Source: Candidatus Hydrogenedentota bacterium (GTDB taxonomy: Bacteria; Hydrogenedentota; Hydrogenedentia; Hydrogenedentales; SLHB01). From it: 57,116 bases of DNA. Positions 2,688-50,286 of the stretch are shown one piece after another. Every line of letters starts with the position of its first letter. Position 1 is the stretch's first letter. The notes below the pieces were generated by a model, which saw only the letters and a list, made by a program, of their open reading frames with translations, searched no databases and was not told where the DNA came from. The stretch is taken from positions 1 to 57,116 of the forward strand of contig JACRLJ010000061.1 of assembly GCA_016215105.1 (NCBI GenBank), given 5' to 3'. The position numbers were made by a program, and so were the translations under genes.

Positions 2688-2721
2688 GGCAATGTCTCCT
2701 CTGTGTACTCACCACTCGACT

Positions 2722-23038: not shown

Positions 23039-23288
23039 AGTTTAGACGTGTTTTCTCGACGATGGACTAGAACAAGGGATACATCGTTGCTATACTGAGT
23101 GAGGCTGGTGGGCCAAGACGCAGGAGCGATCCGTGACGTTGCAGAGAAATCGAGCAAAGCGCCGGGGGAGACGCGTCGCGCTTTCCGCGCCCGCCGTTCT
23201 GGCTGATACCTTGGAATCGAACGTGAATCTTGCTATGGCGCCGGTTCGGCGCGGTGTCCCATCTGTTTTCCAACGGAGGTGTTTCCAC

Positions 23289-26200
23289 GTGCGTAATCAA
23301 TTCAGCCTCCTCCGAGGCGCCGGTCTAGCGATTGTGCTTCTAGCGACAGGGTTGTTTTGGACGCCGTCGGCGCAGGCGCAGCTGTCGATAGACTTCAGCG
23401 CGGCCACGTACACCGGCGCGGAAGGCACCGCGATCGATGTGACGATCAACATATCGGCGGCTCCAGGCGCAGGGAATTCGGCGTCCGTAGATTATGCTTG
23501 TGTAGGCGGCACGGCAGTGCCCGGCCGCGACTACACGCCAGTCAGCGGTACGGCGAATTTTGGCGCGACGACTACCAGCGTGACGTTTTCCATACCGACG
23601 TTCGCGAATGACTGGATAGTATGCGATCCGACCGTCATTGTGCGATTGAGTAATCCGATTGGGAACGGCGTGGCCGTAATTCTGGGAACACAGAACAATG
23701 ACGCTCCCACGATTGTCACCATAACGAAAGAAGCGCCGTCTACCGCGACCGTCACGGCCGAAGACCACATACGAGACGCCGAAGGACTGCTTCCGCTGGA
23801 GGACTGGGTACCGCTTTTTACATTCACGCTCACGACGGCACAGGACCAGCCGGCGTATCGCAGAGTTCAGCAGCTTGTCTATGATATCAAGCACGACGGA
23901 TTTCCGGACCCTCGTCCGTATGACACCGTTGGGGGGCATCCGCCCCAGGACACCATACAAGAATTCGCCATTGTTCAAGACGGCGGTCCGGATGGAAAGC
24001 CCGACGGCGAACTGAGTTTTGTGTGGGACTCCTCCCCCATTTACCGATGGAACAATGCTGGCGCGCCCTACGGGACAGTGACCGATACTGGCGCCACTCT
24101 CGAATATAACCTCGACCTTTCGACTGGCCCGTTCGCGTTGACTCCCGCGCCGGATACCGGTAACCAATACTTCGTTGTCGTGCGCACGTCGGCGTATTGG
24201 TTCAATCGGCTGACAATGAGCGCGAACCTGCAATTCCTCCGGCTGATTGATGTTCATGGGGTGTTTCCCTTTAACTGCGACGGTAAGCCCGTGGACTCGT
24301 ATCCCGAAAAGATACCGTGGGTCGCGAGTGAAAAGGGGTATTCGTCGAGTTTTGCGGTACATGACGTCACCAGCGGCCCCGCAGCAGGGCTCGCAAACAG
24401 ACTGAATCCCTGGTACGCGAACGCGTGGAACTATCCGAAGTATTTGTACACGCCGTTTGCGGAACGGCTTCGCCCCCGCTATGACAAAGTGGGCAACTTC
24501 TTCGACCTGGTCACGGGAGAGTGGATGGATGTGCGCAATCTATTCCCGCTCGAACAGTGGAATGCAGTAATTGGAATCACTGCGCACGGCGCGGAAAAGA
24601 CGGTAGATGATGACCCGACCGCGACTGGGAACAAGATATCGTTTCCTGGTGAGATGGACGAAGTGAACGTGGTGCTGACCGATATCGGCGCCGACCCTCT
24701 GGTACCGGGCAGCGGCGGTTTTGACCCGCGTACTGCATTGCACACCGTAACCGACGAGGGAAATGTCTTTACTGGAACCGATACCCATCACGCAAAGGGC
24801 AATGACTTTGCATTCAGCGGGCTTTGGGTGTTCCACGATACCAACGGAAACAACATTTTCGATCCACCGATACAATCGAACACCGCCGGCGTCGAATTCG
24901 TGGACTTCCCGTTATGGCCGTATGGCACCTTCGTTAACGGGCAACAGGTATTTGGTATCCACGAGTGGGAGTACGTGAGTTTTCCTCCGGACGGCGGGGA
25001 TCCGTGGTGGAAGATGAAACTCCAGTTCTTTGATGGACGCCGCAGGGCCGCCGGCGAAACGCCCACCGGGTATCTGGACCCCACACCGCATGCGTTTGCG
25101 TCGGGCCCTTACATTCCCAGCGATCACTTCCACAATTACTTTGTGGTAGTTCGTCCGGACAGCGGCTACCAGGACGTTTCACTGTTACCGGGTGACGGAA
25201 CGGGGATGCCCGCCGGCGCCGACTTGAGAGCGTTCATCGAGCCACGCCGCTACAATGCATTCAAGGGCCAAGAGGATGGCGGTATCCATTTCACCCTGCA
25301 ACGTCCGATTCTTTGGGAGCCGTGGCAGAACAATTCAGAATGGACCGCGTCGGAACCTTGGTGGCCACAGCGCACATTGAACGCGAATAACGCGAAACCA
25401 ATTCGCAATGCGGTCGAAATTCACGACTTGGTCCTCACTTACTCCAGCGATAATACCTACGATCGAATCACCAACGTCGACTACAGCAATTCGAGCATGA
25501 TCGACACGAACGGTCTACCATCGTCATACGCTTTTGGCAGCAGCACTTTTGACACGTGGTTGGATCCGTTCGGACTACTGCAAGGGCAGTTCCATTACGG
25601 TCAGAGCGTTGGCACAGTGACGTGGCAAATGTACTTTTATGGCACTTTCCCTGGAAATGTGGCTGTTTTCAACACCGATTGGCACTCGAAATTCCAGTAC
25701 CCCTACGAGACGGCGCCGTTCTTCAACCCGTTCTTTGACGGTACGGCGATGCCCCCGCGGTCGATCTTCTTTTCGAACCCGCCCGCGCAGCCAACACTGC
25801 CGGACTACTCGACGTGGATATCCAATGTCGGGCCGTCCGGGCTTGCTCCCGGGAGATATCCTTCGGCGGCCGACTGGCCCTTGGCGCAACGCGCGACCCG
25901 AATACTCAAGCAGCACATTGACATCGATGGTCCGGCGACCGCCATTCTGGGCATCAATCTAGTCGGAGTCGATGACCCGGTCACGAACCGTATTGCGCCG
26001 ATGTCGTTGAGCGAGATCACTGTTGCGATATACGGGTCCGAATTCTTACCGGCCGACTTGGCCACGCTGAATGCCCAGGGGGCTGCGAGTTCGGGTGTCG
26101 CGCTCTACGAGGATTCAGACGGCAATGGTGTGTACGCTGGTGACCTCGGGGGGGACCAAGTGGTGACGCTGCAAGGACTGGCGTGGCGCACTACCCCGGA

Positions 26201-29200
26201 ACTCATCGATCTGACTGGCGACGGCGTGGCCGACGATTTGAGCGGTGATGGCTTTGTTGACGCTAAGGACAAGGCGTGGGTGCTGACCCTTAAACCGTCA
26301 TCGCCATGGCAGCTCCCGATTTCTGACGAGCGCCAGGGTGGCGGATTGGGAACGCTTGGCGGCAAGGAGACCGATGACGCATCGGCGCCGTCGGAGATGC
26401 AGGATTCGATACTGGGATTGAACGTTGGCGTTGCGCCGAACGACCCGAAGCTGGAACAGGAAAAGGCGTCGGGAGACGTTGCGGCTGCAAACGACCCCGC
26501 GCCGAACGACCTATCGACAAAGCCAACGCACAGCATTGACGCGACGGCCGTTCGTGAGGCCGCAGTGGCGCGGGCGAAGGATCTTCGGACCAAACGCGCG
26601 AAAGGCCTGACGGCCGGCGGTCATCAAGGGGATGACCTGTTTGTGGTGATCACGCCTTCGGACAAGGCGCGCCGGTTCGAACATTTCCGCATGCTTGTTC
26701 CGGCAACGCTGCCGTCGCGGCCCGTTCCGGACCGAGTGGCGGGTGTCCAACTATCGCCGGCGAATCTGCTGAATCCGAAAGCGCTGCTCAAGACGAATCC
26801 CGAAGAAGGCGCCGTACAGGATTACTACGGCCACGACAATATCGAGTTTAATGTTCCGGCCAGGCTGACGAACCTTACGACAACGGATCAGATAATTCCC
26901 AAGAATTCTCCGCCTACGGAGGTACTGGGAATTCAGTGTTCGACGAACCGCGGCAACGCGGCAATCGCAGCGACTGGAACGGATGGTGTTGGCGGCGTCA
27001 AGCTGCTAAGCGTTCCCGGCGCCACCTGGACTCCGGGCGCCTTTGTGGGATACTGGCTCCTTGACGGCAACTACGAGCCGTATCAGATCACGGGCAATAC
27101 CGCAACGACACTCACGTTGTTGAGCGGTACGCCCAAGAACGGGTTCTACCGAATTGAGAAGGACCCGACCTTCCTGGAGCAGGTGGTGGTGGAGGTCTAT
27201 GAACCGGCTGACGGTTCGTTCAAGTTCGCGGATGATCTGCAACCGCTGGACATCGACCAGACTGTAAGCGGACTTGCCTTGTACCGGGATAACGATCAGA
27301 ATCCGTCGAACCGTAATGGAAAATTCGATCCTGACGTAGACATCCCGTTGAAACTGGATGTGACACCGTATATTGCCGCGCGCGCCGGTGAACCGCCCAA
27401 CCAAGTGCGATTCATCTTCTCAACGCCCGGCACCGACAACCTTGGACCGGGTTCCGCGTCGCTCCCGATGGCGAATCAGACTCGCCACCGCCAGTGGATT
27501 CCGGACACGTTTGGAACGGCGGAGGATGATCCGGACACGGGTCCCACGTTCTTTGTGGTGGTCCGGACCTCGAACAAACTGGTGACCGGAGCGACGCTCC
27601 GTATCGGTATTGTCTCGTGGGGTCCGAACACGCCGACGGAGCCTGATCCGGACACGTTCCCGCCCCCGCCTGTCACGCTACGAAGCGACGAATTCGATAT
27701 CTTCAGCGAATTCCCGTGGGGTTCGCGGGCCATCGGGTTCATTACTTTCTTCAAGGATCCATCAAGTTTGGATCCACCTGATTTGTCAGGATTCAACTGG
27801 GTGCGTTCGACGATTGCGCAGGCGGTTGTGACGAGTACGATGTACGGCGGCGTGCCAATACCCGCGGCCGATGACGTGGTGATCAATTCCGTGTCGCGTA
27901 GCGCTCTGCCGGCAGTCGTGGGAGCGGGCGGCCTATCGTTCACGATATCGGGTGTGAATTTCGGAGGGGCGCCGATCGTGACGCTTGCCGGAATCACTCT
28001 GACCGTGAATTCCGCCACCAATACGCTGATTGCGGTAACGATTCCCGCAGGCAGCACGTTTACGGCTCTACCGGTGCTGTTGAAAGTCACGAATTCGACC
28101 ACGGGCAAGTTCGCGGTGCGTGACGACTTGTTCACGTTGCCTGCGGTCGGCGACGTGTCAATTACCGGAGCATCTCCGAGCGCGCTGGATCCGGTGATTG
28201 GCGCAGGCGGGTTCCCCTTCACCATCACTGGGTCAGGCTTCGGCAACTCGCCGAAGGCGACGATCAATGGCGTAAATCTCACGATTACCTCCGCGACGGA
28301 TACCACCATCGCGGCGGTTATTCCGGCCGGCACGGCCTTCACTGTTACGCCAATCGTTCTCAAGGTTACCAATCCGACGACCGGCAAATCGCAGACGCGC
28401 GACGACCTGTTTACGCTCACGGGTGGCCCTCCACCCCCGCCGGATGTGGTTATTTCCGCGGTATCGGTCAGCGTTGTTCCGGCGACCATTCTGCCGGGCG
28501 GCTTGGCCCTGAATATCTCGGGCAGTGGTTTTGGATCTTCGCCGAAAGTCACCCTTCAGAGTCACACTCTGACCGTGAATTCGGCCGCGGATTCGCAAAT
28601 CGCGGTGACGATACCGGCCGGCACGACGTTCCTGCGGACGATCCCGATGACGCTAACGGTCAGCAATCCGCTGACGATTAAGCAGGCGTCCCGGGACGAT
28701 CTCATCAGCATCGCGTCGCAGCCGACAATCCTGAGCGTGACACCGAATCACGGCCCGAGCAGCGCGTTCCCGGTCAGGATCACGGGGACCAACTTCGATC
28801 AGCCGACGGTGTACTTTGGCGAGACGCTCATGCCGGTGCAGTCGTGGACCACGACGCAAATCATTGTGGCGTTTCCGACGGGTGGCCTGCCGTCTACGGG
28901 CCCGTTAGACGTGTTGGTGATCAACGCATCGACGGTGAGCGCTACTCTTACGGACGGGTTTGCGTATGAGAATCCGCCGGTACCGGGTCCGGCGCGCGCG
29001 TGTTTTATTGCGACAGCCGCGTACGGGACACCGCTGGAGAGCCACCTGACCACATTCCGCAATTTCCGGGATGGGGCGCTTTTGAAGTCGGCCGCGGGCG
29101 CGGCGCTCGTGGACGTGTACTACACAACGAGCCCGGCGATCGCGGACGCGGTGGCGGAACATCCGGTTCTGGCGCTCGTGGTCCGGCTGGTATTGACGCC

Positions 29201-29474
29201 GGTAGCGTGGCTGCTGGAGGCCCCGATCTCCGTGGGAAGCGTCCTGGTGGCGATGACTCTTGTATATGGGATGTTGCGCCGCCGGCGAAGTGAGATCGCG
29301 AACCAGTCACCTGTTCAGAATGGCGAGTATCCTCGCCTTCGTGATAACCTCGCATACGGCCTACGCCTATTACCCAATGGGCGCGTTTTCGACCCAGTCT
29401 CAGGAACTGGTCATTCCGAAATGGCCCCTCAGTTATATGGATACCAACCGGGACGGCGATATCAGCGGGCCTAA
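23289..29474 (+). CDS. giant exported Calx-beta/IPT protein with CFI-box-CTERM tail
   Basis: The ~2,060-residue surface or secreted protein starts at GTG 23289 (GGAGGT upstream), giving a clean signal peptide ending SAQA before QLSIDF; an upstream GTG 23133 also has AGGAG. A Calx-beta domain (GTAVPGRDYTPVSGTANFG) follows. The ~1,350-residue middle has no family I can name, with calcium-loop-like DTNGNNIFD and DSDGNGVYAGD. Four IPT/TIG domains begin near residues 1529, 1622, 1720 and 1812. The tail carries ACFIATAAYGTP (Cys1905), AAGAALVDVYY, a hydrophobic helix and RRRR near 1996, the layout of CFI-box-CTERM proteins. The frame continues about 60 atypical residues past the arginines and overlaps the next gene by 155 bp, so the natural stop may be lost. 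Confidence 0.85.
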   Translation: MRNQFSLLRGAGLAIVLLATGLFWTPSAQAQLSIDFSAATYTGAEGTAIDVTINISAAPGAGNSASVDYACVGGTAVPGRDYTPVSGTANFGATTTSVTFSIPTFANDWIVCDPTVIVRLSNPIGNGVAVILGTQNNDAPTIVTITKEAPSTATVTAEDHIRDAEGLLPLEDWVPLFTFTLTTAQDQPAYRRVQQLVYDIKHDGFPDPRPYDTVGGHPPQDTIQEFAIVQDGGPDGKPDGELSFVWDSSPIYRWNNAGAPYGTVTDTGATLEYNLDLSTGPFALTPAPDTGNQYFVVVRTSAYWFNRLTMSANLQFLRLIDVHGVFPFNCDGKPVDSYPEKIPWVASEKGYSSSFAVHDVTSGPAAGLANRLNPWYANAWNYPKYLYTPFAERLRPRYDKVGNFFDLVTGEWMDVRNLFPLEQWNAVIGITAHGAEKTVDDDPTATGNKISFPGEMDEVNVVLTDIGADPLVPGSGGFDPRTALHTVTDEGNVFTGTDTHHAKGNDFAFSGLWVFHDTNGNNIFDPPIQSNTAGVEFVDFPLWPYGTFVNGQQVFGIHEWEYVSFPPDGGDPWWKMKLQFFDGRRRAAGETPTGYLDPTPHAFASGPYIPSDHFHNYFVVVRPDSGYQDVSLLPGDGTGMPAGADLRAFIEPRRYNAFKGQEDGGIHFTLQRPILWEPWQNNSEWTASEPWWPQRTLNANNAKPIRNAVEIHDLVLTYSSDNTYDRITNVDYSNSSMIDTNGLPSSYAFGSSTFDTWLDPFGLLQGQFHYGQSVGTVTWQMYFYGTFPGNVAVFNTDWHSKFQYPYETAPFFNPFFDGTAMPPRSIFFSNPPAQPTLPDYSTWISNVGPSGLAPGRYPSAADWPLAQRATRILKQHIDIDGPATAILGINLVGVDDPVTNRIAPMSLSEITVAIYGSEFLPADLATLNAQGAASSGVALYEDSDGNGVYAGDLGGDQVVTLQGLAWRTTPELIDLTGDGVADDLSGDGFVDAKDKAWVLTLKPSSPWQLPISDERQGGGLGTLGGKETDDASAPSEMQDSILGLNVGVAPNDPKLEQEKASGDVAAANDPAPNDLSTKPTHSIDATAVREAAVARAKDLRTKRAKGLTAGGHQGDDLFVVITPSDKARRFEHFRMLVPATLPSRPVPDRVAGVQLSPANLLNPKALLKTNPEEGAVQDYYGHDNIEFNVPARLTNLTTTDQIIPKNSPPTEVLGIQCSTNRGNAAIAATGTDGVGGVKLLSVPGATWTPGAFVGYWLLDGNYEPYQITGNTATTLTLLSGTPKNGFYRIEKDPTFLEQVVVEVYEPADGSFKFADDLQPLDIDQTVSGLALYRDNDQNPSNRNGKFDPDVDIPLKLDVTPYIAARAGEPPNQVRFIFSTPGTDNLGPGSASLPMANQTRHRQWIPDTFGTAEDDPDTGPTFFVVVRTSNKLVTGATLRIGIVSWGPNTPTEPDPDTFPPPPVTLRSDEFDIFSEFPWGSRAIGFITFFKDPSSLDPPDLSGFNWVRSTIAQAVVTSTMYGGVPIPAADDVVINSVSRSALPAVVGAGGLSFTISGVNFGGAPIVTLAGITLTVNSATNTLIAVTIPAGSTFTALPVLLKVTNSTTGKFAVRDDLFTLPAVGDVSITGASPSALDPVIGAGGFPFTITGSGFGNSPKATINGVNLTITSATDTTIAAVIPAGTAFTVTPIVLKVTNPTTGKSQTRDDLFTLTGGPPPPPDVVISAVSVSVVPATILPGGLALNISGSGFGSSPKVTLQSHTLTVNSAADSQIAVTIPAGTTFLRTIPMTLTVSNPLTIKQASRDDLISIASQPTILSVTPNHGPSSAFPVRITGTNFDQPTVYFGETLMPVQSWTTTQIIVAFPTGGLPSTGPLDVLVINASTVSATLTDGFAYENPPVPGPARACFIATAAYGTPLESHLTTFRNFRDGALLKSAAGAALVDVYYTTSPAIADAVAEHPVLALVVRLVLTPVAWLLEAPISVGSVLVAMTLVYGMLRRRRSEIANQSPVQNGEYPRLRDNLAYGLRLLPNGRVFDPVSGTGHSEMAPQLYGYQPGRRYQRA

Positions 29475-32400
29475 CGAAGGTATCCCGATTACGTTCGAGA
29501 CGGGGAATCTGGGGTTCAGTGGCTCTGAAATCGACCTCGTAAAGAGCGCATTCAAGACCTGGTCGGATGTTCCGACTGCGTTCATTGGATTTCGCTACAC
29601 GGATCCGGTGCCCAACCTTCCCGATTCGCTGGAGCTTTCGGCGGATATCGGAGCAATGGACTATTTCAACTACGTCGCGAAGGAAACTACTGGCGATACC
29701 CAGGTGCTTCCAAGCGGGGTCGCTGGCATGACCTTTATCACGTCCACCGTGGACGCGACCCAGATATACATAGACGGAAACTCCTACGACATCAACGGTG
29801 GCACCATTCTTGATGTGGACATCGCGCTGAGCGACATTCTTGCAGAGACGAATCTCGCGGGCGCGGCAACCGTAAACATCGGGTACATGCTAGGGCTTGC
29901 CGCGAATCCCCTGGGCTATAACTTGCGGGGAGTCAGTATCCGGACGGAGGACGGGTATTGGCCCCTGGCGTTCTACCTGCCCGAGCATGGCTTTAAGTCA
30001 ATAGCGATGTGGGAAAATCCGCATGTTCAGTTGCGCGATGCGTCCGGCCAACTAAAGAATTTCGGCGTGACACCGTCCATGTTTCCGTACCTGCACTGGT
30101 ACGCCCCGGGACCCGTTCTGGCCCCGACACGGTTCTCCGCCGACTACGAGTACGCCAGTCCTACAAAGTCGGTGGCGGAAGTGGAAGCGGAACTCAGTCC
30201 GCTTCCGAAATCCGCGGTTGAACCGTATCTTACCGGTATCGGAGTATCGTATCTTTTCCAGAACTTCGCTGGTCAGAATGCAAATTTGATGAGCCAGCCC
30301 GCAAAGGGTCTCAAACTCAAGGTATCCGAGAACTTCGCCGCTGGACTCTCCACCGCCAATCTCTTCACGGACTACTTGGTGGACGGAAAGTACCGCGTAT
30401 ACCGGACGGAGCTTCAGTCGCAGGACGCGCTTGGTTTGCGTCTGGAAGTGGACCTGGCGACTCTGCGTCCAGAGGAAGAGCTTTGGGTAATCGATCCCAC
30501 GGTCATGCGATCCTTTGGGCCGTTCACGCGCACAACCGGTCCCCGCAGCCATCGTTGGCTGCCCTGGGTGCAGGGCGATACGACGGCCTTGGTGGTGCGC
30601 TCCACCGGCGCAGAGACGCCCGACGTGACGATCGAGCAGGGATCGCATTTCTTCCGATCCCTGGACGAGGCGGCCAAAGAGTTAGGGTGTTACGTAAACG
30701 TCGCGTGCGAGACTGACGCGACACTCCAGAAGATTTCTTCCGGCATAGGGCTCGTCCAGGCCATAATCGGCTTCAGCGGCTTTATGGCGTCCGGAAGTCT
30801 GCTCACTAACCCGGACACAGCGGAGCGCGAACCGTACTTTTTGACCGCCAATCACGTGATCGGCGACATTGACATTGCGCTGAGTTGCGACATTTTCTGG
30901 GACTACCGGATCGCGACCTGCGCCGGCGTCAGCCCGCCCTCGCTGTCCTCCGTGCCGCGTAGCTCAGTCACTGAATTGCTCGCCACGCTGCAGCCGCTGG
31001 ACGCCTCGCTGGTCAAACTGGACACCGTGCCCGTGGGCTCCTATGGCCGCGCGTATCTTGGGTGGGATTTCCGCCTGCCGAGCACAAAAGATGGCGAGAA
31101 CCGGTTCGTGGGCATTAGCCACCCTGGCGGTAGTCACATGCGCCTCTCCAAAGGAAAGATTGCGTCCATTGGCAACGAGGTCCTTGTGAGTGAATTCGGA
31201 CCGGTAATCGGCATGATTGAGTGCGACTTCGATTCAGGCGTGGTAGAACCGGGATCTTCCGGTTCCCCGCTGATGTACGACGACCCCGATCATCGCGTTC
31301 TCGGAATGCTAAGCAATGGCGACTCCAGCCAGACCTGCGAGACAAATCCATACAAAGCGAGCTACGCGTCGTTCCGCGATTTCTTTCCCTTTATCGCCGG
31401 CTACCTAACCGGAACACCTGCCCCGACACCGGAAGACCGGTGCGGTCAGGAAGGCGCGCGCGACCTCGCGCCAGATGATATTGCGGCGCTCAGCGACCTC
31501 TACCCCCGGAAAGGCGAGGACGTTTTCTTCAGCTTCCAGCAGGAAGCAAGAACTCACACCAACGGGCAAACGCTTCCAAGCGTTCCTATCGCCGGCGGTT
31601 TGATAATAGCCTATTGCGACACGGACAACGACCCCAGCACGTCGCGCATTCCGGTGTTCTCAACACTGACCAGCCTGTACCAAGTTCAAAACGCGACACG
31701 CGGCCGATTCGACATGAAAGGGTTGTACAAACAGTTCGAGACCAGCGCGGGCGGCCTATTTGACGCCACCTACACGTTTACGGTAAGCCCGATCTACAGT
31801 CCGCTGTGGCTGCACTTGTCCTTGGATCCCAAGAGTTACGACTCGACGCACGACGGATCATTCGTTACCGGTGGTCTTCCCGGGTTCAGTTTCTCATCGG
31901 GCTATCCCTCCGAGGTGTTCCATGAAAACGGGAACCTCCTGGACGAATCGCGCTACGATGAAGGCACTCCGCTCAAGTACGACCGTATCCGGCGCCAGGT
32001 GATTAGCGCGGATTCGATGCGCTCACTTGCCACCATTCTGCCCGGGACCAAACCGATGTTTGGCGACGGCGTATCCAATTGTCCCTACGCGGTGGCGTCG
32101 ATAGGTCTGTCTTCAAGCAAAGGTCCGGATGCGCTGCGGGCGCTACGCGACCGCTACCTGCTGCACAGCGCGGTTGGCGCGGCCTTGGTTGACGTCTATT
32201 ACCATGTCGGGCCGTCACTTGCGGAATACCTGCTGACGCACGCGACAGCATGGCGTGTAGCCCATGCCGCCGCGGCGAGCGTCGAGTGGTCGCTCTCCCA
32301 TTCGGTTCACGTTGTTACCGCCGCTTTAGTTCTGATGTTCATGACGCTGGGAGGACTGAAACTTATGCGCCGCCGGATGGTACGACGGTCAACCCTGCTG

Positions 32401-33003
32401 ACGCTGGCTCTGAGCGCGCCGTTCCTGTTCGCAAGTTCGGGTAGCGCGCAGCTCTTGCAGATGAGCAACGAGCAAATGGTGGCGGCGTCCAATGACATTG
32501 TTACGGGTGAGGTCGTGGCCGTTGAAAGCCACTGGAACGACCGCAAACAAATTGTCACGGATGTGACCATCAAGGTGAACGACGTCATCAAAGGCAAGGC
32601 CAACAAGGATGGCCACGTTTCTCTTCAGGTACCCGGCGGCCGTGTGGGCGGTATCGTCACGAGAGTGACATTCATGCCCGCATTCTCTCCGCAGGAAAAG
32701 GTAGTTGTGTTTCTGGAAAACCGGAAGAGCGGTCCCAAGAACACGGCTGCAAGTCCGCTGATCGTAGGCGGCACACGCGGGAAACTCGAGATTACCGAGG
32801 ACGCCACAACCAAGGCGGCCTACGTGACCGGCGGCAGTGAAGAAGCCCAACTACAGATCGCCGAAGCCAACTCCGAGATGGCGAAAGAGTCCAAGGACGC
32901 CAGCGCGACCCCGAAGGACATGGCGCAGTCCAACGAAAAGATTGCGCTCAGTGACTATACCCAGTACTTGCGCGGCATAGTGGCGAAACAGAAGAATAAG
33001 TGA
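29320..33003 (+). CDS. exported trypsin-like protease nested in a degenerate matrixin, CTERM tail, C-terminal fusion
   Basis: From ATG 29320 a signal peptide (MASILAFVITSHTAYA) precedes a matrixin-like region with ITFETGNLGFSG, VKSAFKTWSDVPTAF and ILDVDIALSDIL. Where HExxHxxGxxH should be, residues 185-195 read VNIGYMLGLAA, so the zinc site is gone. A trypsin-like domain follows with His512 (TANHV), Asp561 (LDASLVKLD) and Ser649 (GSSGSP), and then the matrixin-type ending APDDIAALSDLYP (719-729). Thus the serine protease appears inserted in the metalloprotease fold. A CTERM-like tail begins at Cys921 and shares GAALVDVYY with the upstream protein, ending in a helix and RRRMVRR near 1016. The frame then continues without a stop into a small exported protein (see 32365). 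Confidence 0.8.
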   Translation: MASILAFVITSHTAYAYYPMGAFSTQSQELVIPKWPLSYMDTNRDGDISGPNEGIPITFETGNLGFSGSEIDLVKSAFKTWSDVPTAFIGFRYTDPVPNLPDSLELSADIGAMDYFNYVAKETTGDTQVLPSGVAGMTFITSTVDATQIYIDGNSYDINGGTILDVDIALSDILAETNLAGAATVNIGYMLGLAANPLGYNLRGVSIRTEDGYWPLAFYLPEHGFKSIAMWENPHVQLRDASGQLKNFGVTPSMFPYLHWYAPGPVLAPTRFSADYEYASPTKSVAEVEAELSPLPKSAVEPYLTGIGVSYLFQNFAGQNANLMSQPAKGLKLKVSENFAAGLSTANLFTDYLVDGKYRVYRTELQSQDALGLRLEVDLATLRPEEELWVIDPTVMRSFGPFTRTTGPRSHRWLPWVQGDTTALVVRSTGAETPDVTIEQGSHFFRSLDEAAKELGCYVNVACETDATLQKISSGIGLVQAIIGFSGFMASGSLLTNPDTAEREPYFLTANHVIGDIDIALSCDIFWDYRIATCAGVSPPSLSSVPRSSVTELLATLQPLDASLVKLDTVPVGSYGRAYLGWDFRLPSTKDGENRFVGISHPGGSHMRLSKGKIASIGNEVLVSEFGPVIGMIECDFDSGVVEPGSSGSPLMYDDPDHRVLGMLSNGDSSQTCETNPYKASYASFRDFFPFIAGYLTGTPAPTPEDRCGQEGARDLAPDDIAALSDLYPRKGEDVFFSFQQEARTHTNGQTLPSVPIAGGLIIAYCDTDNDPSTSRIPVFSTLTSLYQVQNATRGRFDMKGLYKQFETSAGGLFDATYTFTVSPIYSPLWLHLSLDPKSYDSTHDGSFVTGGLPGFSFSSGYPSEVFHENGNLLDESRYDEGTPLKYDRIRRQVISADSMRSLATILPGTKPMFGDGVSNCPYAVASIGLSSSKGPDALRALRDRYLLHSAVGAALVDVYYHVGPSLAEYLLTHATAWRVAHAAAASVEWSLSHSVHVVTAALVLMFMTLGGLKLMRRRMVRRSTLLTLALSAPFLFASSGSAQLLQMSNEQMVAASNDIVTGEVVAVESHWNDRKQIVTDVTIKVNDVIKGKANKDGHVSLQVPGGRVGGIVTRVTFMPAFSPQEKVVVFLENRKSGPKNTAASPLIVGGTRGKLEITEDATTKAAYVTGGSEEAQLQIAEANSEMAKESKDASATPKDMAQSNEKIALSDYTQYLRGIVAKQKNK
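32365..33003 (+). CDS. small exported protein, possible independent product of internal start
   Basis: ATG 32365 lies in frame inside the upstream gene, preceded by GGGAGGA at good spacing, and begins a clear signal peptide (RRSTLLTLALSAPFLFASSGSA). The 212-residue product has MSNEQMVAASNDIVTGEVVAVESHW, VTDVTIKVNDVIKGK, VSLQVPGGRVGG and SPQEKVVVFL, a pattern I associate with small exported proteins of unknown function. It is probably a separate gene whose upstream neighbour lost its stop, giving both a fusion and a free form. An intrinsic terminator follows. Confidence 0.6.
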   Translation: MRRRMVRRSTLLTLALSAPFLFASSGSAQLLQMSNEQMVAASNDIVTGEVVAVESHWNDRKQIVTDVTIKVNDVIKGKANKDGHVSLQVPGGRVGGIVTRVTFMPAFSPQEKVVVFLENRKSGPKNTAASPLIVGGTRGKLEITEDATTKAAYVTGGSEEAQLQIAEANSEMAKESKDASATPKDMAQSNEKIALSDYTQYLRGIVAKQKNK

Positions 33004-33548: not shown

Positions 33549-34442
33549 TTGCGAAGCCTCATCATACGTCAGTTGTTCGTGCTGGTTGACCTCGCGCTCG
33601 CGCTTGCGCTGATCGCGGTGCTATGGTTGGTTGTCGCGCGAGTACTTCGTCCCGAAGCGGCGGCGCCGGCGCCGGGCGCCGTGGAGGGTGCGACCGCTCA
33701 GCCGCTCGAACTGCGCGAAGTCCGTGCGCGGGCCGACTATGACGTGATAGCGAATAGCGCGCTCTTCGGTCCAGGCGGCCAGATCGCGCCGCCGCAGGCG
33801 CCGATTGATGTTCCCGCGAACGACCCGGTGGTAGCGACCAAACTTCCACTTCGGTTGGTTGGCACGGCCGCTGCGGCGCCGACCGACCCGGTCGCTACGG
33901 CGACGATTGAAAACGTGGCGTCCAAGACGCAGGCGGTGTACTACCTGAACGATGAGATTATGGCGGGCGTCAAGCTCGTCGAAGTGCAACGGCGCAAGGT
34001 CCTCTTGGAGAATAATCAGAAGCGCGAGCTTCTGAGCATGGACGAGGAGCCCCCTGCGCCCGCGGGGCCGGTGGTTGCTTCCGCGGCGGATGCGGGGCCG
34101 AAGCTCGGCGCGAGCCCGCTGAAGATTTCGATGAAGAAGGACGAGTTGATTACCGAGCTCTCCGCGAATTACGCGGACATCTTGGGGCAGGTGAGTCCCG
34201 AGCAACACACGGACGCGAGCGGAAAAGTGGACGGTTACACGTCCAAGAATCTGGCCAACGTTCCTCTGGCAAAGAAGATGGGTTTGCAGAACGACGACGT
34301 GCTTCAACAGATCAACGGCGTGACCATTGACAGTCCCGAGAAGATCGTGGAAGTGGCCAACAAGTTCAAGGACAATCGCACCTTCCAGTTGACGATCCAA
34401 CGCAACGGGAAACGCCAGGTAATCACATACAATTTGGAGTAA
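33549..34442 (+). CDS. gspC: type II secretion inner-membrane protein GspC with PDZ-like domain
   Basis: GspC links the inner-membrane platform to the secretin. The 297-residue protein has one N-terminal helix (VLVDLALALALIAVLWLVV), a Pro/Ala linker, an HR-domain-like stretch (LPLRLVGTAAA, AVYYLNDEIMAGVKLVEVQRRKVLLEN) and a C-terminal PDZ-like domain (PLAKKMGLQNDDVLQQINGVTIDSPEKIVEV). The TTG start follows AAGGA. It begins the gspC-M operon. The PDZ ending rather than a coiled coil matches the E. coli/Klebsiella-type GspC layout. Confidence 0.88.
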   Translation: MRSLIIRQLFVLVDLALALALIAVLWLVVARVLRPEAAAPAPGAVEGATAQPLELREVRARADYDVIANSALFGPGGQIAPPQAPIDVPANDPVVATKLPLRLVGTAAAAPTDPVATATIENVASKTQAVYYLNDEIMAGVKLVEVQRRKVLLENNQKRELLSMDEEPPAPAGPVVASAADAGPKLGASPLKISMKKDELITELSANYADILGQVSPEQHTDASGKVDGYTSKNLANVPLAKKMGLQNDDVLQQINGVTIDSPEKIVEVANKFKDNRTFQLTIQRNGKRQVITYNLE

Positions 34443-34485
34443 TTGCGCCAGCATGAAATCCCGGCTAACAGGGGAGGACAGGACA

Positions 34486-36969
34486 GTGAAGGTGAAACGA
34501 ATCGCGCGCTGGACGTGTATTGGCGTCGCGCTGGGTCTAATGCTGGCCTTCCGCACGTGGGCCGCGGAGGCGGTGAGCACTCAGACCGAGAAATCGCCCG
34601 AGGGCGAGCCTGCCGCCGAAAGCAGCGATGCGCCGGCGGCGCAGCCCGAGCCGTCCGGGACCGAGGAACAGCCCGCGGCGAAGGAGACGCCCGCAGCGAA
34701 AACGCCGGCGCCTAAGCCCACGGTGCGCACGACCACGAAGCCCGGCGCTCGCGGCAAGCCAGGTCTACCCGGCGCGGCGCCCGCCAACGCCACACCGGTA
34801 TCGCCGAATCGTCCCAAGGGTGGTGTTACGCCCGGGGAGCCGGTCAGCCTTGATTTCAACGGGGTCAAGCTGGTCAACGTCATCGAGCAGATCGGCATCA
34901 TGACGGGCAAGAACTTCGAGGTGGACCCTGGAATCGCCGATACCATGGTCACGGTCATATCGCAGGAACCCATCGCGCCGGAGATGGCGTATTACGTGCT
35001 TGAATCGATTCTTGCCACCAAGGGGTTCAGACTGGTACCGACCCTGGATGGAAAGTGGATCAAGGTCCTTCCCCAGGGCGAAGGCGGCGAGAAGAACCCG
35101 GTAATCATTGGAGCGGGCGAGCCCAAGGGATTCGACAACTTTTCGACCTACGTAATACCGGTCAAGTTCGCGGACGCGAGCGAGCTTTCTTCATTGCTCA
35201 AGACGCTGGGCTCAAAAAACGCGCGCGTGGACGCGTACGCGAACACGAACACCCTGATCATCAACGATAGCGCGGACGGCATCCGCAATATGCTTACCCT
35301 GCTCAAGGAGATCGACATTCCCGGGAATGACACGAAGATGGAAATCTTCACCCTGGAATACACCCGCGCCGAAGTGGTCCAGGGACAGATTCAGGAAGTG
35401 CTGCTGGGCCAGGATGCGGGCGTGCGCCAACCGGGCGCCGCCGCAGCACCCCGTCCACAGGTGCAAGCGGGCGCAAGTCGGCGTACGCAGGTGCCCGGTC
35501 AAACGGCGTCCACCATCGTGGGGTCGCGAGAGGAAACGTTGCGTATCGTAGCGGACGAACGGCTCAACGCGCTGATCGTAGTGGCTACGGCGTCGATGAT
35601 GGAACGGACTCGGGACCTTGTCAATAAGCTGGACACGCCGACACCGTGGGAAGCGAACAATATGCACGTCTACGAATTGCTGAACGCCAGCGCGGAGGAC
35701 GTCGAGAATGCGCTCAACGCTGTTGTTGGCGGCACTGGCGGCGGTTCGCGCTCCATGAGCAGTACCAGCAGCTCGATGAGCCGGTCCAGTTCATCAGGCT
35801 CGCGTCCGGTGAGCAGTCCCTCGCCCCAGTACTCTCAATCGTCCGCGAGTGGCGCCGGGCCGACGGAGCAGGTTCAAGCGTTCGAGAAACGCGTTTCGAT
35901 ATCGCGCTATGACCAGACCAATGCGCTGCTCATCGTCGCGTCACCCCAGGACTACGAGCGTATCAAGGGGCTGATTGCGCAGCTCGACGTGCCGCAACGG
36001 CAGGTCAATGTCGAGGCGGTGATCATGGAAGTGACGATCAGCGACTCGTATGAGCTGGATGTCGAAGCGACCGCTCTCAAAGGCAACAGCGGCTTCGGGT
36101 TGAACAACGTGGTGAATCTGGCGAACATTCTGGCCAGCGGTCCCCTGGCTGCCGCCGGGTCGGGGTTGACGGCCGGTTACTTGCGGGGAACGACGAAAGT
36201 CCCGGTGTCGGCCGGCGGAGTAACCACCATCCAGACGATACCGAACGTGCCGCTGCTGCTGAAAGCGATCGAGCAATTGACGACGGTGGACGTGCTGTCG
36301 AACCCGTTGATTACGACCGTGGACAACAAGGAAGCGGAATTGACAATAGGCCAGCAGGTGCCGACCCCGGCTGCGGTAAACAGCGGTGAAACCGGTCTGG
36401 TGATTCAGAACCGTATCGAGCGGAAGGACGTTGGTGTGAAGCTGAAAGTCACGCCGCAAATTAACGAAGGCGACTACATTTCGATGGACACGGAGGTCGA
36501 GGTCTCGAAGCCGGTTACCAGTGACGTGGGCATCGACCCGAACAAGACCGGTCCGACCTTTCAGATGTCCAAGATTATGAACACCATGATCATCAAAGAC
36601 GGCGAAGCGGGCGTGATGGGCGGTCTGTTGAGCGAGAGCATGGATCGCACGATATCGCAGCCGCCGATCATTGGCGACATACCGATCATTGGCTGGTTCG
36701 CGAAGTCGCGCAATCATAAGCGGGACAAGCGCAATCTGGTGGTGGTGATGACTCCGCACATCATCAAGGAGGGCGTGGATTACGAGCGGGTCACCAAGGG
36801 CGTGATGGACGAATTCAACGCCGCCAACTTGGATGTGATATTTGAACAAGGCTTCATCAACAAGATTAAGAAGAAGCAAGAGATACGCGCCCATCACTAT
36901 CCGTCGATCGAGCATTCGCAGAGGATGGTGAGCGACCAGGGCGAATCGCAAAAGAACGTGCAGAGGTAA
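34486..36969 (+). CDS. gspD: type II secretion secretin GspD
   Basis: GspD forms the outer-membrane pore. From GTG 34486 (GGGGAGG upstream; an ATG at 34453 is weaker) a signal peptide ends at FRTWA. A Pro/Ala-rich linker is followed by N0 (VSLDFNGVKLVNVIEQIGIM), several N-domains (DASELSSLLKTLGSKNARVDAYANTNTLII) with two low-complexity insertions, one Ser/Met-rich, and the secretin core (SNPLITTVDNKEAELTIGQQVPTP, KLKVTPQINEGD, GVMGGLLSES, IPIIGWFAKS, RNLVVVMTPHII). At 827 residues it is long. No pilotin gene was seen nearby. Confidence 0.95.
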   Translation: MKVKRIARWTCIGVALGLMLAFRTWAAEAVSTQTEKSPEGEPAAESSDAPAAQPEPSGTEEQPAAKETPAAKTPAPKPTVRTTTKPGARGKPGLPGAAPANATPVSPNRPKGGVTPGEPVSLDFNGVKLVNVIEQIGIMTGKNFEVDPGIADTMVTVISQEPIAPEMAYYVLESILATKGFRLVPTLDGKWIKVLPQGEGGEKNPVIIGAGEPKGFDNFSTYVIPVKFADASELSSLLKTLGSKNARVDAYANTNTLIINDSADGIRNMLTLLKEIDIPGNDTKMEIFTLEYTRAEVVQGQIQEVLLGQDAGVRQPGAAAAPRPQVQAGASRRTQVPGQTASTIVGSREETLRIVADERLNALIVVATASMMERTRDLVNKLDTPTPWEANNMHVYELLNASAEDVENALNAVVGGTGGGSRSMSSTSSSMSRSSSSGSRPVSSPSPQYSQSSASGAGPTEQVQAFEKRVSISRYDQTNALLIVASPQDYERIKGLIAQLDVPQRQVNVEAVIMEVTISDSYELDVEATALKGNSGFGLNNVVNLANILASGPLAAAGSGLTAGYLRGTTKVPVSAGGVTTIQTIPNVPLLLKAIEQLTTVDVLSNPLITTVDNKEAELTIGQQVPTPAAVNSGETGLVIQNRIERKDVGVKLKVTPQINEGDYISMDTEVEVSKPVTSDVGIDPNKTGPTFQMSKIMNTMIIKDGEAGVMGGLLSESMDRTISQPPIIGDIPIIGWFAKSRNHKRDKRNLVVVMTPHIIKEGVDYERVTKGVMDEFNAANLDVIFEQGFINKIKKKQEIRAHHYPSIEHSQRMVSDQGESQKNVQR

Positions 36970-36976
36970 GGCGGCG

Positions 36977-38713
36977 ATGGCCAGCGCAAAACCCGCCCTC
37001 TTGGGCGAAATACTGGTGAGTCTGGGACACTCCCACCAGCAAGAGATCAATGAAGCGCTGGAGCTGCAAAAGATCAGACCGAAACGCATCGGCGAGATCC
37101 TCATGGATCTCGGCTATAGCGACGAGGACCAGGTGTTGGAGGCCCTCAGCCAGCAGTTCGATATCCCGTTCGAGCGCTCGCTCAACGGGCAAGTCGACAC
37201 CGCGTTGACGACCAAGGCCCCGATCAATTTTATCCGCGAGTATTACATGGTTCCGTTCCGGAAGGACGCGCAAGGCTTTGCCGTCGCGCTGAACGATCCG
37301 GTGAATCTCTTGCCCCTGGACGATTTGCGTCTCCTCTTGGGCGGCGCGGTCTTCCCCGTGATCTGCCGCAAGGACGACATTCAGCGCATCATAGACAGCT
37401 ACTTCGATCAGCAGGGCGAGAATGCGGCGGACATGATCGATGACATTGTCATGGCGGAAGATCCGGATTCCGAAGTACAGAGTTTCAATCTGAGCGAGTC
37501 CGATCGCGACCTGCTTGACCTCGCCAATGAAGCGCCCATCATCAAGCTGATCAATCTGCTGATTTCCGGGGCGGTGAAGGAGCGGGCATCGGATATTCAC
37601 ATCGAGCCGTTCGAGCGGGAGGTGCGCGTCCGCTACCGCATTGACGGTGTGCTCTACGAGAAGTTTACCGTCCCGAAGTCCCAGCAGGCGGCGGTGATCT
37701 CGCGTATCAAGATCATGGCGAACCAGAACATCGCGGAGCACCGGCTGCCCCAGGATGGCCGCATCAAGATCCGGCTGAGCGGCAAGGAGATCGACATCCG
37801 CGTGTCGGTGATTCCGATTGCATTCGGCGAGCGCATCGTGATGCGTATCCTCGAAAAAGGCACGTTCCTCTACGGTCTTGAAGAAATCGGCATGGACCGT
37901 CACGATTTTACTCAGGTCGACAAGCTCATCACGAGTTCGCACGGCATCATTCTCGTGACGGGGCCGACGGGGTCAGGGAAGTCTACGACGCTGTACGGCG
38001 CTCTTCAGCGCGTGAATTCGCTGGACAAGAACATTATTACCGTCGAGGATCCCATCGAATACCAGATGCCGAGCATCGGGCAAATCCAGGTTCACGAAAA
38101 GATCGGGCTAACGTTCGCGGCGGCGTTGCGCAGCATTTTGCGCCAAGACCCGGACGTTATTCTCGTCGGCGAAATTCGTGACCTGCCGACGGCGGAAATG
38201 GCGATCCAGGCGTCGCTCACGGGCCACCTGGTGTTTTCGACGCTGCACACCAACGACAGCGCGGGCGCCATTACGCGTCTTGTGAACATGGGAATCGAAC
38301 CCTTCCTGGTGAGTTCGTCCACGATCGCGATTCTCGCCCAGCGCTTGGTGCGGCAGATCTGCAAGTACTGCCGCGAAGAATACGTGCCCGAAATCGAGAG
38401 CGTTATTGAACTCGGCGTGCCGGCGGATCAAGCCCAGGGCAAGCTGGCCTACCGCGGCCGCGGCTGCGAACGGTGTCAGAACCGGGGGTATCACGGCCGG
38501 ACGGGCATATTCGAGTTGCTGACGATGACCCCGCACATTCAGGACTTGACCTTGCGCGGCACGGACTCGAACGTCATCAAGCGCGAGGCAAAGAAGCACG
38601 GCATGCGCACCTTGCGCGAGGACGGGGCCAGCAAAGTCTTCCAAGGAGTGTCCACCATCGAAGAAGTGCTGCGCGTAACGCGCGATGAGATGGTTGACGA
38701 AGTGTTAGACTAG
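36977..38713 (+). CDS. gspE: type II secretion ATPase GspE
   Basis: This hexameric ATPase drives pseudopilus assembly. The 578-residue protein has a T2SSE N-domain (LGEILVSLGHSHQQEINEALELQ), the ASDIHIEPF and RYRIDGVL regions, Walker A GPTGSGKST (329-337), Walker B (VILVGEIRD), the His box HLVFSTLHTNDSAGA, and a tetracysteine zinc site (ICKYC and CERC). It starts 7 bp after gspD with GAGG upstream. A repeat-containing gap follows before gspF. Confidence 0.95.
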   Translation: MASAKPALLGEILVSLGHSHQQEINEALELQKIRPKRIGEILMDLGYSDEDQVLEALSQQFDIPFERSLNGQVDTALTTKAPINFIREYYMVPFRKDAQGFAVALNDPVNLLPLDDLRLLLGGAVFPVICRKDDIQRIIDSYFDQQGENAADMIDDIVMAEDPDSEVQSFNLSESDRDLLDLANEAPIIKLINLLISGAVKERASDIHIEPFEREVRVRYRIDGVLYEKFTVPKSQQAAVISRIKIMANQNIAEHRLPQDGRIKIRLSGKEIDIRVSVIPIAFGERIVMRILEKGTFLYGLEEIGMDRHDFTQVDKLITSSHGIILVTGPTGSGKSTTLYGALQRVNSLDKNIITVEDPIEYQMPSIGQIQVHEKIGLTFAAALRSILRQDPDVILVGEIRDLPTAEMAIQASLTGHLVFSTLHTNDSAGAITRLVNMGIEPFLVSSSTIAILAQRLVRQICKYCREEYVPEIESVIELGVPADQAQGKLAYRGRGCERCQNRGYHGRTGIFELLTMTPHIQDLTLRGTDSNVIKREAKKHGMRTLREDGASKVFQGVSTIEEVLRVTRDEMVDEVLD

Positions 38714-39095: not shown

Positions 39096-40322
39096 ATGGC
39101 GGTATTCGAATACGAAGCAATGGCCACGACGGGCAAAATCGTCAAGGGTGTCATTGACGCGGATTCGGTGACGTCTGCCCGCCGGCAATTGCGAGAACAG
39201 ACGCTCTACCCGACCAAGCTGGTCGAGACCTTTGGGAAAGAGGGCTTCGCCGGGCCGTCGGCGCCCAGCGGCGCGGCGCGCGGCCGCATTTCGGCGCGCG
39301 ATGTGGCGATGCTGACCCGGCAAATGGCGGTCTTGCTGCACGCTGGAATGCCGCTGGTGGAGACGTTAGGCGCATTGCTCAACCAAGTAACGAACGCCCG
39401 TCTGGGCAAGATCATTTACGACATTCGCGCTAAGGTGAACGAGGGGATGACCCTCGCCAACGCCTTGGGAGCGCACAACCGGATTTTTTCCGATTTATAT
39501 GTCAACATGGTTCGCGCGGGGGAATCGAGCGGCGCGCTGGAGCAGGTCTTGTTTCGGTTGGCGGATATTCAGGAGCGTCAGGTCAAGCTGAGGAGCCGCA
39601 TCCAGTCATCCTTGGCGTATCCGGTGGTGATGGCCGTCTTTGGCTTCGGAATCATCTTTTTTCTGATGACGGTGATCGTGCCGAAGATCGTGGTCATTTT
39701 TACGAAGCAGAAGGCCCATTTGCCAATGATTACGGAATGGCTTATTGCGACGTGTACCTTCCTTGGCCGCTGGTGGTGGGCGCTTGCGCTGGTAATCGTC
39801 GCGATGTATTCCATATGGCGGGCGTGGGTGGCGCGTCCCGAGGGGCGCCGGGTGTGGGACCGTTTCAAGCTGCGGTTGCCGGTCTTCGGCAAGATGTACA
39901 CGATGATCATCAGCGCCCGGTTTGCGCGCACGCTGGGCACCATGCTGCAAAGCGGGCTTACCATGATGACGGCGCTGGACGTGGTCAAATCCGTGCTCGG
40001 GAACCGGGTCATCGAGGAATCGCTGGACGACGTGAAGGCGGATGTCCGCCGGGGCCGGGATTTGTCGGTGCCGTTGAAGGAGTGCGGCTATTTTCCGGCG
40101 ATGTTGATCAGCATGGTGGAATTGGGACAGCGCAGTGGCGAGCTCGAGAACATGATGCTGAAAATCGCCGACACCTACGACGAGGATGTCGAGATGTCGG
40201 TGGACGCGGTGGTGAGCCTGCTCGAGCCGTTCATGATCATAATAATGGGCCTCTTTGTGGGGTTCTTGGTATTGGCCATACTGCTGCCCATCTTCTCGCT
40301 GAGCAGCACGGTAAAACACTAG
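39096..40322 (+). CDS. gspF: type II secretion platform protein GspF
   Basis: GspF is the polytopic inner-membrane platform on which GspE acts. The 408-residue protein contains two T2SSF domains: MLTRQMAVLLHAGMPLVETLG with a following helix (VVMAVFGFGIIFFLMTVIV), and FARTLGTMLQSGLTMMTALDV ending in the C-terminal helix (FMIIIMGLFVGFLVLAILLP). N-terminal FEYEAMATTGKIVKGVIDAD is typical. Length is normal. Confidence 0.95.
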   Translation: MAVFEYEAMATTGKIVKGVIDADSVTSARRQLREQTLYPTKLVETFGKEGFAGPSAPSGAARGRISARDVAMLTRQMAVLLHAGMPLVETLGALLNQVTNARLGKIIYDIRAKVNEGMTLANALGAHNRIFSDLYVNMVRAGESSGALEQVLFRLADIQERQVKLRSRIQSSLAYPVVMAVFGFGIIFFLMTVIVPKIVVIFTKQKAHLPMITEWLIATCTFLGRWWWALALVIVAMYSIWRAWVARPEGRRVWDRFKLRLPVFGKMYTMIISARFARTLGTMLQSGLTMMTALDVVKSVLGNRVIEESLDDVKADVRRGRDLSVPLKECGYFPAMLISMVELGQRSGELENMMLKIADTYDEDVEMSVDAVVSLLEPFMIIIMGLFVGFLVLAILLPIFSLSSTVKH

Positions 40323-40395: not shown

Positions 40396-40827
40396 ATGAA
40401 AACGCACACACCCGGCCGGAGGCGCGGCGGCGTTATGGGTTTTACCCTCATTGAGTTGATGGTGGTGATCGCCATTATCGGCATCCTCGCCACCATCGTC
40501 GTGCCGAGATTCATGAGTTCGGTGGGGGAATCGAAGAGAGTCGCCGCGATTGCCCAGATTAACGTGTTTAAGACAATGCTCACGAGTTACAAGCTGTCCT
40601 TCAAGAAGTATCCGACCAGCGGCGAGGGGCTCGAGGCGTTGCTCCACACGCCTAAAGGGAACTTGCTGGATAGCGATACGGTGCCGCTGGATCCCTGGGG
40701 CAACAAATACTCGTATACCTGCCCGGGTTCGCACAGTGATTTCGACATCGTGGCCTACGGCGAGGACGGTCAACCCGGGGGCGACGGCGAGAACGCCGAC
40801 GTCGAGAGTTGGAATCTGAACAAATAG
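40396..40827 (+). CDS. gspG: major pseudopilin GspG
   Basis: GspG is the main subunit of the T2SS pseudopilus. The 143-residue product has a short basic leader, the prepilin peptidase site G-FTLIELMVV, a hydrophobic N-helix, and the GspG core with YPTSGEGLEALLHTP, LDPWGNKYSYTCPG, and the calcium-loop/C-terminal GEDGQPGGDGENADV ... SWNL. AAGGAG precedes ATG 40396. Confidence 0.96.
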   Translation: MKTHTPGRRRGGVMGFTLIELMVVIAIIGILATIVVPRFMSSVGESKRVAAIAQINVFKTMLTSYKLSFKKYPTSGEGLEALLHTPKGNLLDSDTVPLDPWGNKYSYTCPGSHSDFDIVAYGEDGQPGGDGENADVESWNLNK

Positions 40828-42011: not shown

Positions 42012-42048
42012 CGCCATGAGTATCGAGCGCATAGAAGAGGTTTATGCC

Positions 42049-43151
<1,103 letters not shown>

Positions 43152-43155
<4 letters not shown>

Positions 43156-45874: not shown

Positions 45875-45972
45875 TGCGGCGTAGCCGCGAACATGGGTCG
45901 GACGGATCAGACCGATCGGACAGTGCGTTGGAAAGTGATTTCGGGCCCAAGGCCCTTGACAGGAGATAAGAC

Positions 45973-49071: not shown

Positions 49072-49145
49072 CCTCCGTTTCCGGACGGCGGATGGTTGGA
49101 CTCAATTCAGTTAATCGCGTAGCGGGATGGTAAGGAGACTGGCGC

Positions 49146-50243: not shown

Positions 50244-50286
50244 GGTAAGGCATCGTGACAACCGCCCGCTCGAACTCGACGAGGCG

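Follow-up and report, generated by a model that had tools for sequence, protein, structure and literature searches.

Related CFI-box-CTERM modules on two adjacent exported proteins beside a type II secretion operon in a Hydrogenedentota bacterium

The stretch of DNA analyzed here (contig JACRLJ010000061.1, 57,116 nucleotides, forward strand; hereafter the window) belongs to a 6.68 Mb assembly of a Candidatus Hydrogenedentota bacterium (GCA_016215105.1), in which it is contig C18. Directly upstream of an operon for a type II secretion system (T2SS), it carries two adjacent genes for putatively exported proteins, gene 1 (g1) and gene 2 (g2), each of which contains a module of the CFI-box-CTERM type (NCBIfam NF041770). 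Sequence comparison indicates that the two modules are homologous: g1 ends with a canonical copy, and the domain in g2 is a remote relative of CFI-box-CTERM in its helical part. In the reading favored here, the CFI domain is in general a small, helical module at the C-terminus of exported proteins as well as of proteins that lack a signal peptide; export by the T2SS would be one of its uses, specific to a lineage, and would not define the domain.

Homologous modules at the locus

The features of the two genes, all on the forward strand (+), are as follows.
23133..29474 (+): g1, giant exported protein of 2113 amino acids (open reading frame, ORF; NF041770 and NF058597 over cut-off)
29001..29288 (+): canonical CFI-box tail of g1, with Cys, helical domain, transmembrane (TM) helix and RRRR (NF041770 at 29001-29204, 90 bits)
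29289..29474 (+): stretch by which the g1 frame outruns its Arg cluster and enters the first part of g2, probably through a frameshift
29290..33003 (+): g2, one ORF of 1237 amino acids, a putative two-product precursor (the GTG start at 29290 was chosen)
29368..30087 (+): matrixin-like domain of g2, HExGH absent in the window copy (Peptidase_M10 matches in relatives)
30088..31452 (+): inserted trypsin-like segment of g2 (Trypsin_2, 26.4 bits, just under cut-off)
31459..32076 (+): conserved beta-rich part of g2 (alignment; structure model partly of low confidence)
32080..32364 (+): CFI-like internal domain of g2, with invariant Cys, helical part and TM helix (NF041770 scans, alignments, hhalign)
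32365..32388 (+): basic loop MRRRMVRR of g2 (translation, alignment)
32389..32448 (+): second signal-peptide-like segment of g2, ending ...GSA before Q (sequence; sites by eye)
32449..33003 (+): small C-terminal domain of g2 with a predicted NTR/TIMP-type fold (AlphaFold2 model, Foldseek, VIA-align)

The C-terminal domain of g1 scores 83.3 bits against NF041770 as a protein (curated cut-off, 40) and 90 bits (E 5e-25) in a scan of its own genome, which contains four matches over the cut-off, namely two at the locus, one on contig C15, and one on contig C33. The tail runs from the Cys at nucleotide 29001 to an Arg cluster at 29277-29288, and is preceded by a hydrophobic N-terminal segment (read from the translation), a Calx-beta-like N-terminal region that falls just below its cut-off, and TIG repeats that exceed theirs. 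This CFI box is C-terminal, followed only by the TM helix, the Arg cluster, and an extension of 62 codons that is out of phase with g2. The extension is likely to reflect a frameshift in the assembly or the strain, because the CFI-tailed g1 proteins of six relatives with complete ends stop approximately 5-10 residues past the Arg cluster.

The domain in g2 scores close to the curated cut-off of NF041770: the protein gave 36.2 bits, below it, and the scan of the DNA gave 41.6 bits (E 6.5e-10). Its relationship to the canonical tail was assessed by aligning a profile of 14 canonical tails with a profile of 10 g2-type tails, and hhalign returned a probability of 99.6 (E 8e-24) over columns 12-98, a match that spans the helical part and excludes the CFI segment. 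In that segment, the g2 module keeps the Cys and lacks CFIATAAYG: the window copy reads CPYAV, the relatives mostly CPxN, and the Cys is the only residue of the segment that is invariant in 21 g2 sequences. Beyond the Arg cluster, the g2 frame stays open and in phase for approximately 200 more codons, to 33003, so the module is not C-terminal. The initial annotation, which had described two adjacent giant exported proteins with homologous tails, one canonical and one diverged, was right about the homology, about the character of each copy, and about the Cys and Arg cluster common to both, and has to be corrected on three points, in that the g2 module is internal, CFIATAAYG is missing from it, and the g1 frame also runs on beyond its Arg cluster.

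The locus was compared in 20 relatives from seven families of the order, which were picked for a diverged CFI match within a frame of 806-910 amino acids. A g1 homolog lies upstream of g2 in 19 of these loci, the twentieth ending at a contig edge, and gspC lies just downstream of g1-g2 in 13. The end of g1 was read in 18 relatives: six, all in the family of the window, carry a CFI box, and twelve have a short tail in which a Cys is combined with a TM-like stretch and basic residues. As judged from the sequences, the replacement of the CFI box on orthologous g1 proteins by short Cys-TM-Arg tails speaks for tails with this Cys being involved in anchoring or processing, and an exchange of this kind on orthologous proteins beside a T2SS amounts to a natural experiment on CFI box function.

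The CFI domain at large and the role of the tails

Beyond the locus, the CFI domain was surveyed in 80 loci, the best of at least 576 that were found with the canonical peptide CFIATAAY; canonical tails are therefore over-represented among them. A TM helix follows 75 of the 89 tails in these loci, and a crude scan found an N-terminal hydrophobic segment in 59 of 71 assessable CFI proteins. AlphaFold2 models a canonical tail of 103 residues (L005), homologous to that of g1, as five helices with a mean predicted local distance difference test score (pLDDT) of 91.6 and a predicted template-modeling score of 0.71. Foldseek found no PDB match to this model at E up to 10, an absence that does not show a new fold, and a sequence search of the PDB with a canonical tail gave no convincing match. 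A literature search by name, motif, and NF041770 found no paper on CFI-box-CTERM in the library covered, a designation that names proteins in routine annotation, as seen in plasmid records.

Four of the five CFI proteins without a signal peptide described here are encoded on plasmids. Among 63 plasmid records with a CFI match, six were opened; in two of these (L186 and L188) the match lies in a short unannotated frame. CFI domains were found there on signal-peptide-less proteins with a cold-shock domain, with Mrr_cat and WYL domains, with a kinase-like domain, and with a weak TPR match, and a further such protein, zinc-ribbon-like by eye, occurs in a Pseudomonadota genome. The protein with Mrr-type endonuclease and WYL domains (L187, 2718-3752) is encoded on a haloarchaeal plasmid and adjoins an annotated restriction endonuclease. 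The CFI domain is hence not restricted to exported proteins, and a post-export sorting tag cannot explain its signal-peptide-less carriers; the presumed sorting signal, from which the initial annotation had started, covers only part of the use of the domain. Likewise, because CFI domains occur without a TM helix, without a signal peptide, and without a GspD match in the genome, T2SS processing cannot be their general function.

For the locus itself, the following model may be proposed. Besides a T2SS, the locus would encode large proteins of the envelope or surface that belong to this system, and Sec would export both precursors, g1 and g2. The TM helix and Arg cluster of the CFI-type module would then stop transfer and tie the protein to the inner membrane, on whose outer face the Cys would lie; the protein would be modified and/or cut at this Cys, and the mature part would be handed over to the neighboring T2SS. 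We regard this membrane-holding and Cys-processing role of the tails, with hand-over to the T2SS, as evenly poised between right and wrong. Several observations weigh against it. A TM helix is missing after 14 of the 89 tails, the CFI domain also ends the proteins without a signal peptide described above, and CFI boxes occur in genomes without a GspD match. No gsp genes were found in the fetched region of seven of the 20 chosen loci, and no NCBIfam sorting-tail model, MYXO-CTERM included, exceeded its cut-off in the four of the twelve short g1 tails that were scanned; one of these four gave a sub-threshold GlyGly-type match (14.1 versus 19.7 bits). Finally, in 76 CFI-bearing genomes, which include 20 of the 68 genomes of the phylum and leave out G086 and G095, the sorting enzyme MrtX was over its cut-off in none and rhombosortase in only two.

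The initial annotation had suggested looking for a protease family present only in genomes with such tails; of the known sorting enzymes, MrtX and rhombosortase were searched, and neither tracks the CFI tails. Weaker MrtX matches occur in eight of the 76 genomes, the second strongest in that of the window, where a CPBP protein (G000:C82:3531-3887) scores 83.5 bits (cut-off, 180); a match of this kind is absent from the other 19 genomes of the phylum that were tested. Rhombosortase matches at E up to 0.001 in 57 of the 76 genomes say little, because all 14 control genomes match too. A sorting enzyme encoded beside the tails was sought by clustering the ORFs in the flanks of the 80 loci, and no neighboring gene recurs broadly: the largest cluster (37 loci) apparently consists of CFI proteins themselves, judging from one example, and the others cover at most six loci. 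The CPBP family (PF02517) occurs in 66 of the 68 genomes of the phylum, and at least three of the copies read at 20 places share their stretch with an ABC-transporter ATPase.

A tenable, if somewhat improbable, alternative is that the CFI box serves at the membrane surface or in protein interaction and is kept by the mature protein; the TM helix would act only as a tether when the protein is exported, and the adjacency to the T2SS would reflect co-regulation of envelope genes. The signal-peptide-less carriers and the TM-less tails are readily accommodated by such a domain, as is the amphipathic character of helices 3-4 in several of ten CFI sequences. In addition, residues 31-73 carry a net charge between +5 and +10 in each of five examples that lack a signal peptide, compared with an average of +1.6 (range, -1 to +6) in the 75 tails with a TM helix, as the positive-inside rule predicts for a domain at the inner face, although this comparison is based on a small sample without phylogenetic correction. 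The charge pattern is consistent with a location of the domain at the membrane surface. However, only five signal-peptide-less examples were compared, and a charge of +5 or more is also reached by five of the 75 tails with a TM helix and by three of the 14 without. An uncleaved domain also makes it hard to explain why orthologous g1 proteins exchange the CFI box for a short Cys-TM-Arg tail, with a Cys in both.

Gene 2 as a putative two-product precursor

The fused form of g2 is a single uninterrupted ORF in all 20 chosen relatives and in the window; because the loci were picked for a long frame, they give no measure of how often the fusion is absent. The relatives share one order of parts, namely a matrixin-like half, the beta-rich part, the CFI-like domain, the TM helix, the basic loop, a hydrophobic segment, and the small domain. 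In all 21 sequences, positions -3 and -1 of the second signal-peptide-like segment are occupied by small residues (sites placed by eye), and the C-terminal domains of the relatives are 23-44% identical to the window copy. On these grounds, cleavage by signal peptidase may split g2 in two, leaving the protease-like half held at the membrane and releasing a partner with the NTR fold into the periplasm. That the fusion arose by a lost stop between overlapping genes and has no functional meaning is very unlikely: genes are tightly packed here, the window copies of g1 and g2 overlap, with g1 apparently frameshifted, and unfused cases were not sought among relatives, but none of the 21 sequences interrupts the frame at this level of divergence, with both the basic loop and the small-x-small site conserved.

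An internal CFI box also occurs outside g2. In L006, one ORF (bases 571-3204, reverse strand) joins a beta-helix-like part to a canonical CFI box and continues through a TM stretch and a basic loop into a second signal-peptide-like segment and, by reading, a probable outer-membrane barrel.

The N-terminal half of g2 is matrixin-like. With an E limit of 1, Peptidase_M10 matches nine of the 21 members, the best at 1.3e-5 and the window copy being unmatched, and the HExGH zinc motif is kept in nine members and absent from the window copy and 11 relatives. The trypsin-like insert is found only in the window copy, the alignment showing a gap in all 20 relatives, so that window g2 combines this insert with loss of the matrixin zinc motif. 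By eye, the insert resembles the CFI-tailed protein of contig C33, which is itself trypsin-like (weak Pfam match) and appears to lack the final TM helix.

The C-terminal domain of g2 is predicted to adopt an NTR/TIMP-type fold. The AlphaFold2 model of the C-terminal half of g2 (514 residues) has a mean pLDDT of 68.7, and ten-residue blocks of the last domain range from 42 to 92, most of them above 70. With this domain, Foldseek retrieved NTR/TIMP folds at E of about 0.01 and none at or below 0.001, and VIA-align matched it to agrin NtA (Z 10.6, root-mean-square deviation 2.7, 116 residues aligned) and to N-TIMP-3 (Z 9.6, deviation 2.8, 116 aligned). By our assignment, NTR-type domains account for 48 of the 50 VIA-align rows listed, and the other two are RecO structures, the first non-NTR match (Z 7.9, 74 aligned). 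The complement structures among these rows presumably align through their NTR/C345C domain, judging from the residue ranges. The relation to NTR/TIMP depends on the predicted model, because sequence searches do not show it: Pfam NTR/TIMP models match none of the 21 C-terminal domains, and a PDB sequence search with the g2 domain returned no NTR/TIMP chain. The N-terminal Cys of TIMPs reaches the zinc; the predicted new N-terminus of the g2 domain is not Cys in the window or in the 20 relatives.

It is tempting to speculate further, in a proposal that we consider unlikely, that g2 is a bacterial polyprotein of a matrixin and a TIMP-fold domain that is cut at its internal signal peptide, and that the NTR-fold partner would bind the membrane-held half in a fixed ratio before hand-over to the T2SS. 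Even in copies with a dead protease, the half that bears the CFI-like domain would be retained, serving the giant protein as scaffold or chaperone, and the CFI box would be an old membrane-surface module, suited to both sides of the membrane, that was recruited for T2SS cargo.

Secretion genes and comparison with known systems

The genes downstream of g2, all on the forward strand, are as follows.
33549..34442 (+): gspC (T2SSC PF11356 over cut-off; NCBIfam GspC models below cut-off)
34453..36969 (+): gspD (TIGR02517, 417.7 bits, over cut-off)
36977..38713 (+): gspE (TIGR02533, 668.6 bits, over cut-off)
39096..40322 (+): gspF (TIGR02120, 447.7 bits, over cut-off)
40396..40827 (+): gspG (TIGR01710, 130.3 bits, over cut-off)
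40858..43155 (+): gspH, gspI and gspJ, minor pseudopilins (named by order and pilin motif)
43152..44219 (+): gspK (NF037980, 157.5 bits, over cut-off)
44201..46488 (+): gspL-like (PilM-related) and gspM (pilM match below cut-off; T2SSM just over cut-off)

Profile matches thus confirm that the operon encodes a T2SS and that, as initially annotated, it adjoins the pair: GspD, GspE, GspF, GspG, and GspK exceed NCBIfam cut-offs, and T2SSC and T2SSM exceed Pfam cut-offs. For the minor pseudopilins, the GspH and GspI matches are below cut-off and N_methyl is over cut-off in two of the three. The gspJ-like pseudopilin (41995-43155) ends in approximately 50 residues that are nearly all Gly, with some Ser. 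On the 3' side of the operon lies a further secretion-type ATPase with an MshEN domain (at 47224), and the stretch 47224-53310 also holds, by reading, an ATPase-like frame (50152) and a PilC-like frame (52000).

Within Hydrogenedentota, the CFI box occurs in 67 of 68 genomes and GspD over cut-off in 57. A hand count among the matches listed places GspD within 10 kb of a CFI match in at least 19 of these 57 genomes, where about one would be expected by chance on a rough estimate; the genomes are related and hence not independent, and contig ends hide pairs. The adjacency of g1-g2 to the T2SS in this phylum is not due to chance. Similar arrangements exist in three Pseudomonadota genomes: a giant CFI protein, gspC, and gspD lie in a row in near-identical stretches of two (G162 and G190), and one ORF separates the giant CFI protein from gspC-gspD in the third (G210). 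Their gspC has a weak match to the GspC of the window in two cases and was named by position in the other.

The link between tail and T2SS that the initial annotation had put forward is supported by this synteny and fails as a general rule. Outside the phylum, 27 of 50 CFI-bearing genomes (four of 54 loci, L170, L172, L176, and L181, were left out) have GspD over cut-off, and 19 have no match at E up to 1e-5; of these, 18 bear Chloroflexi, Chloroflexota, or Dehalococcoidia in their titles, and the remaining one is archaeal. Among 249 Pseudomonadota genomes, nine carry a CFI box, and GspD, counted at E up to 1e-60, is found in seven of these nine (the exceptions being G160 and G337) and in 136 of the 240 others, which is no convincing difference; without G096, the Pseudomonadota genome at the center of the set, which was chosen for its CFI box, the former count becomes six of eight. 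The proposed co-occurrence of CFI boxes with T2SS genes across genomes was thus not found. In Chloroflexota, the CFI box occurs in three of 151 genomes, including the center G075. T2SS or pilus genes appear in the fetched flanks, many of them short, of three of the 62 CFI loci outside the phylum, that is, the 80 less 18 counted as Hydrogenedentota (including L119, L120, and L175, which are titled otherwise and match contigs of the phylum in tail sequence or in position and frame length). Among the 14 control genomes, NF041770 gave sub-cut-off matches in two when E was limited to 0.1 or 0.001 (Bacillus subtilis and Lactococcus lactis) and in B. subtilis only at 1e-5, and GspD was over cut-off only in E. 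coli and Caulobacter. That the tail is itself the recognition signal for the T2SS is, despite the synteny in Hydrogenedentota and in the three Pseudomonadota, exceedingly unlikely and as a general rule already contradicted by these genomes without GspD and by the missing co-occurrence, and g1 lacks a CFI tail beside gspC in five of the 11 relatives in which both the g1 end and gspC were read.

Several known systems resemble parts of this locus. Among NF041770 members, the g1 tail is a clear case, whereas the g2 copy is internal and lacks CFIATAAYG, and g2-type copies often have an insert between the Cys and the helices. MYXO-CTERM tails of Myxococcota, according to one report (PMC11980579), consist of a Cys, a TM helix, and an Arg cluster, are processed by myxosortase (MrtX), and yield a product that the T2SS is thought to carry; the same report mentions one internal MYXO-CTERM as a possible gene fusion. 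The CFI tails are similar in the invariant Cys, the TM helix, the Arg cluster, and the occurrence of an internal case. They differ in a helical domain of approximately 60 residues between the Cys and the TM helix and in that the 76 CFI-bearing genomes searched have no MrtX over cut-off, weaker matches aside.

In Vibrio cholerae, according to PMC6219818, the trypsin-like protease VesB requires its GlyGly-CTERM tail, rhombosortase, and the T2SS, the tail having a TM helix and a basic end and the protein being retained at the surface. Some CFI proteins also look trypsin-like (from the weak Pfam match of the C33 protein and from sequence reading); however, no Gly-Gly motif was read in CFI tails, and only two of the 76 CFI-bearing genomes have rhombosortase over cut-off.

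Finally, a two-gene pair of Listeria, mtz-tim, encodes a metzincin and a protein of TIMP-like predicted fold, the latter a lipoprotein (PMC8235301). On the structure model, g2 is similar in that a metzincin-type protease would be encoded together with a partner of TIMP-like predicted fold. It differs in being one ORF in a T2SS-bearing phylum, in the CFI module and internal signal-peptide-like segment between its halves, and in the frequent loss of the zinc motif. If confirmed, a one-ORF precursor of this type would extend the two-gene bacterial pairs of metzincin and TIMP-like protein to a fused form in a phylum that bears the T2SS.

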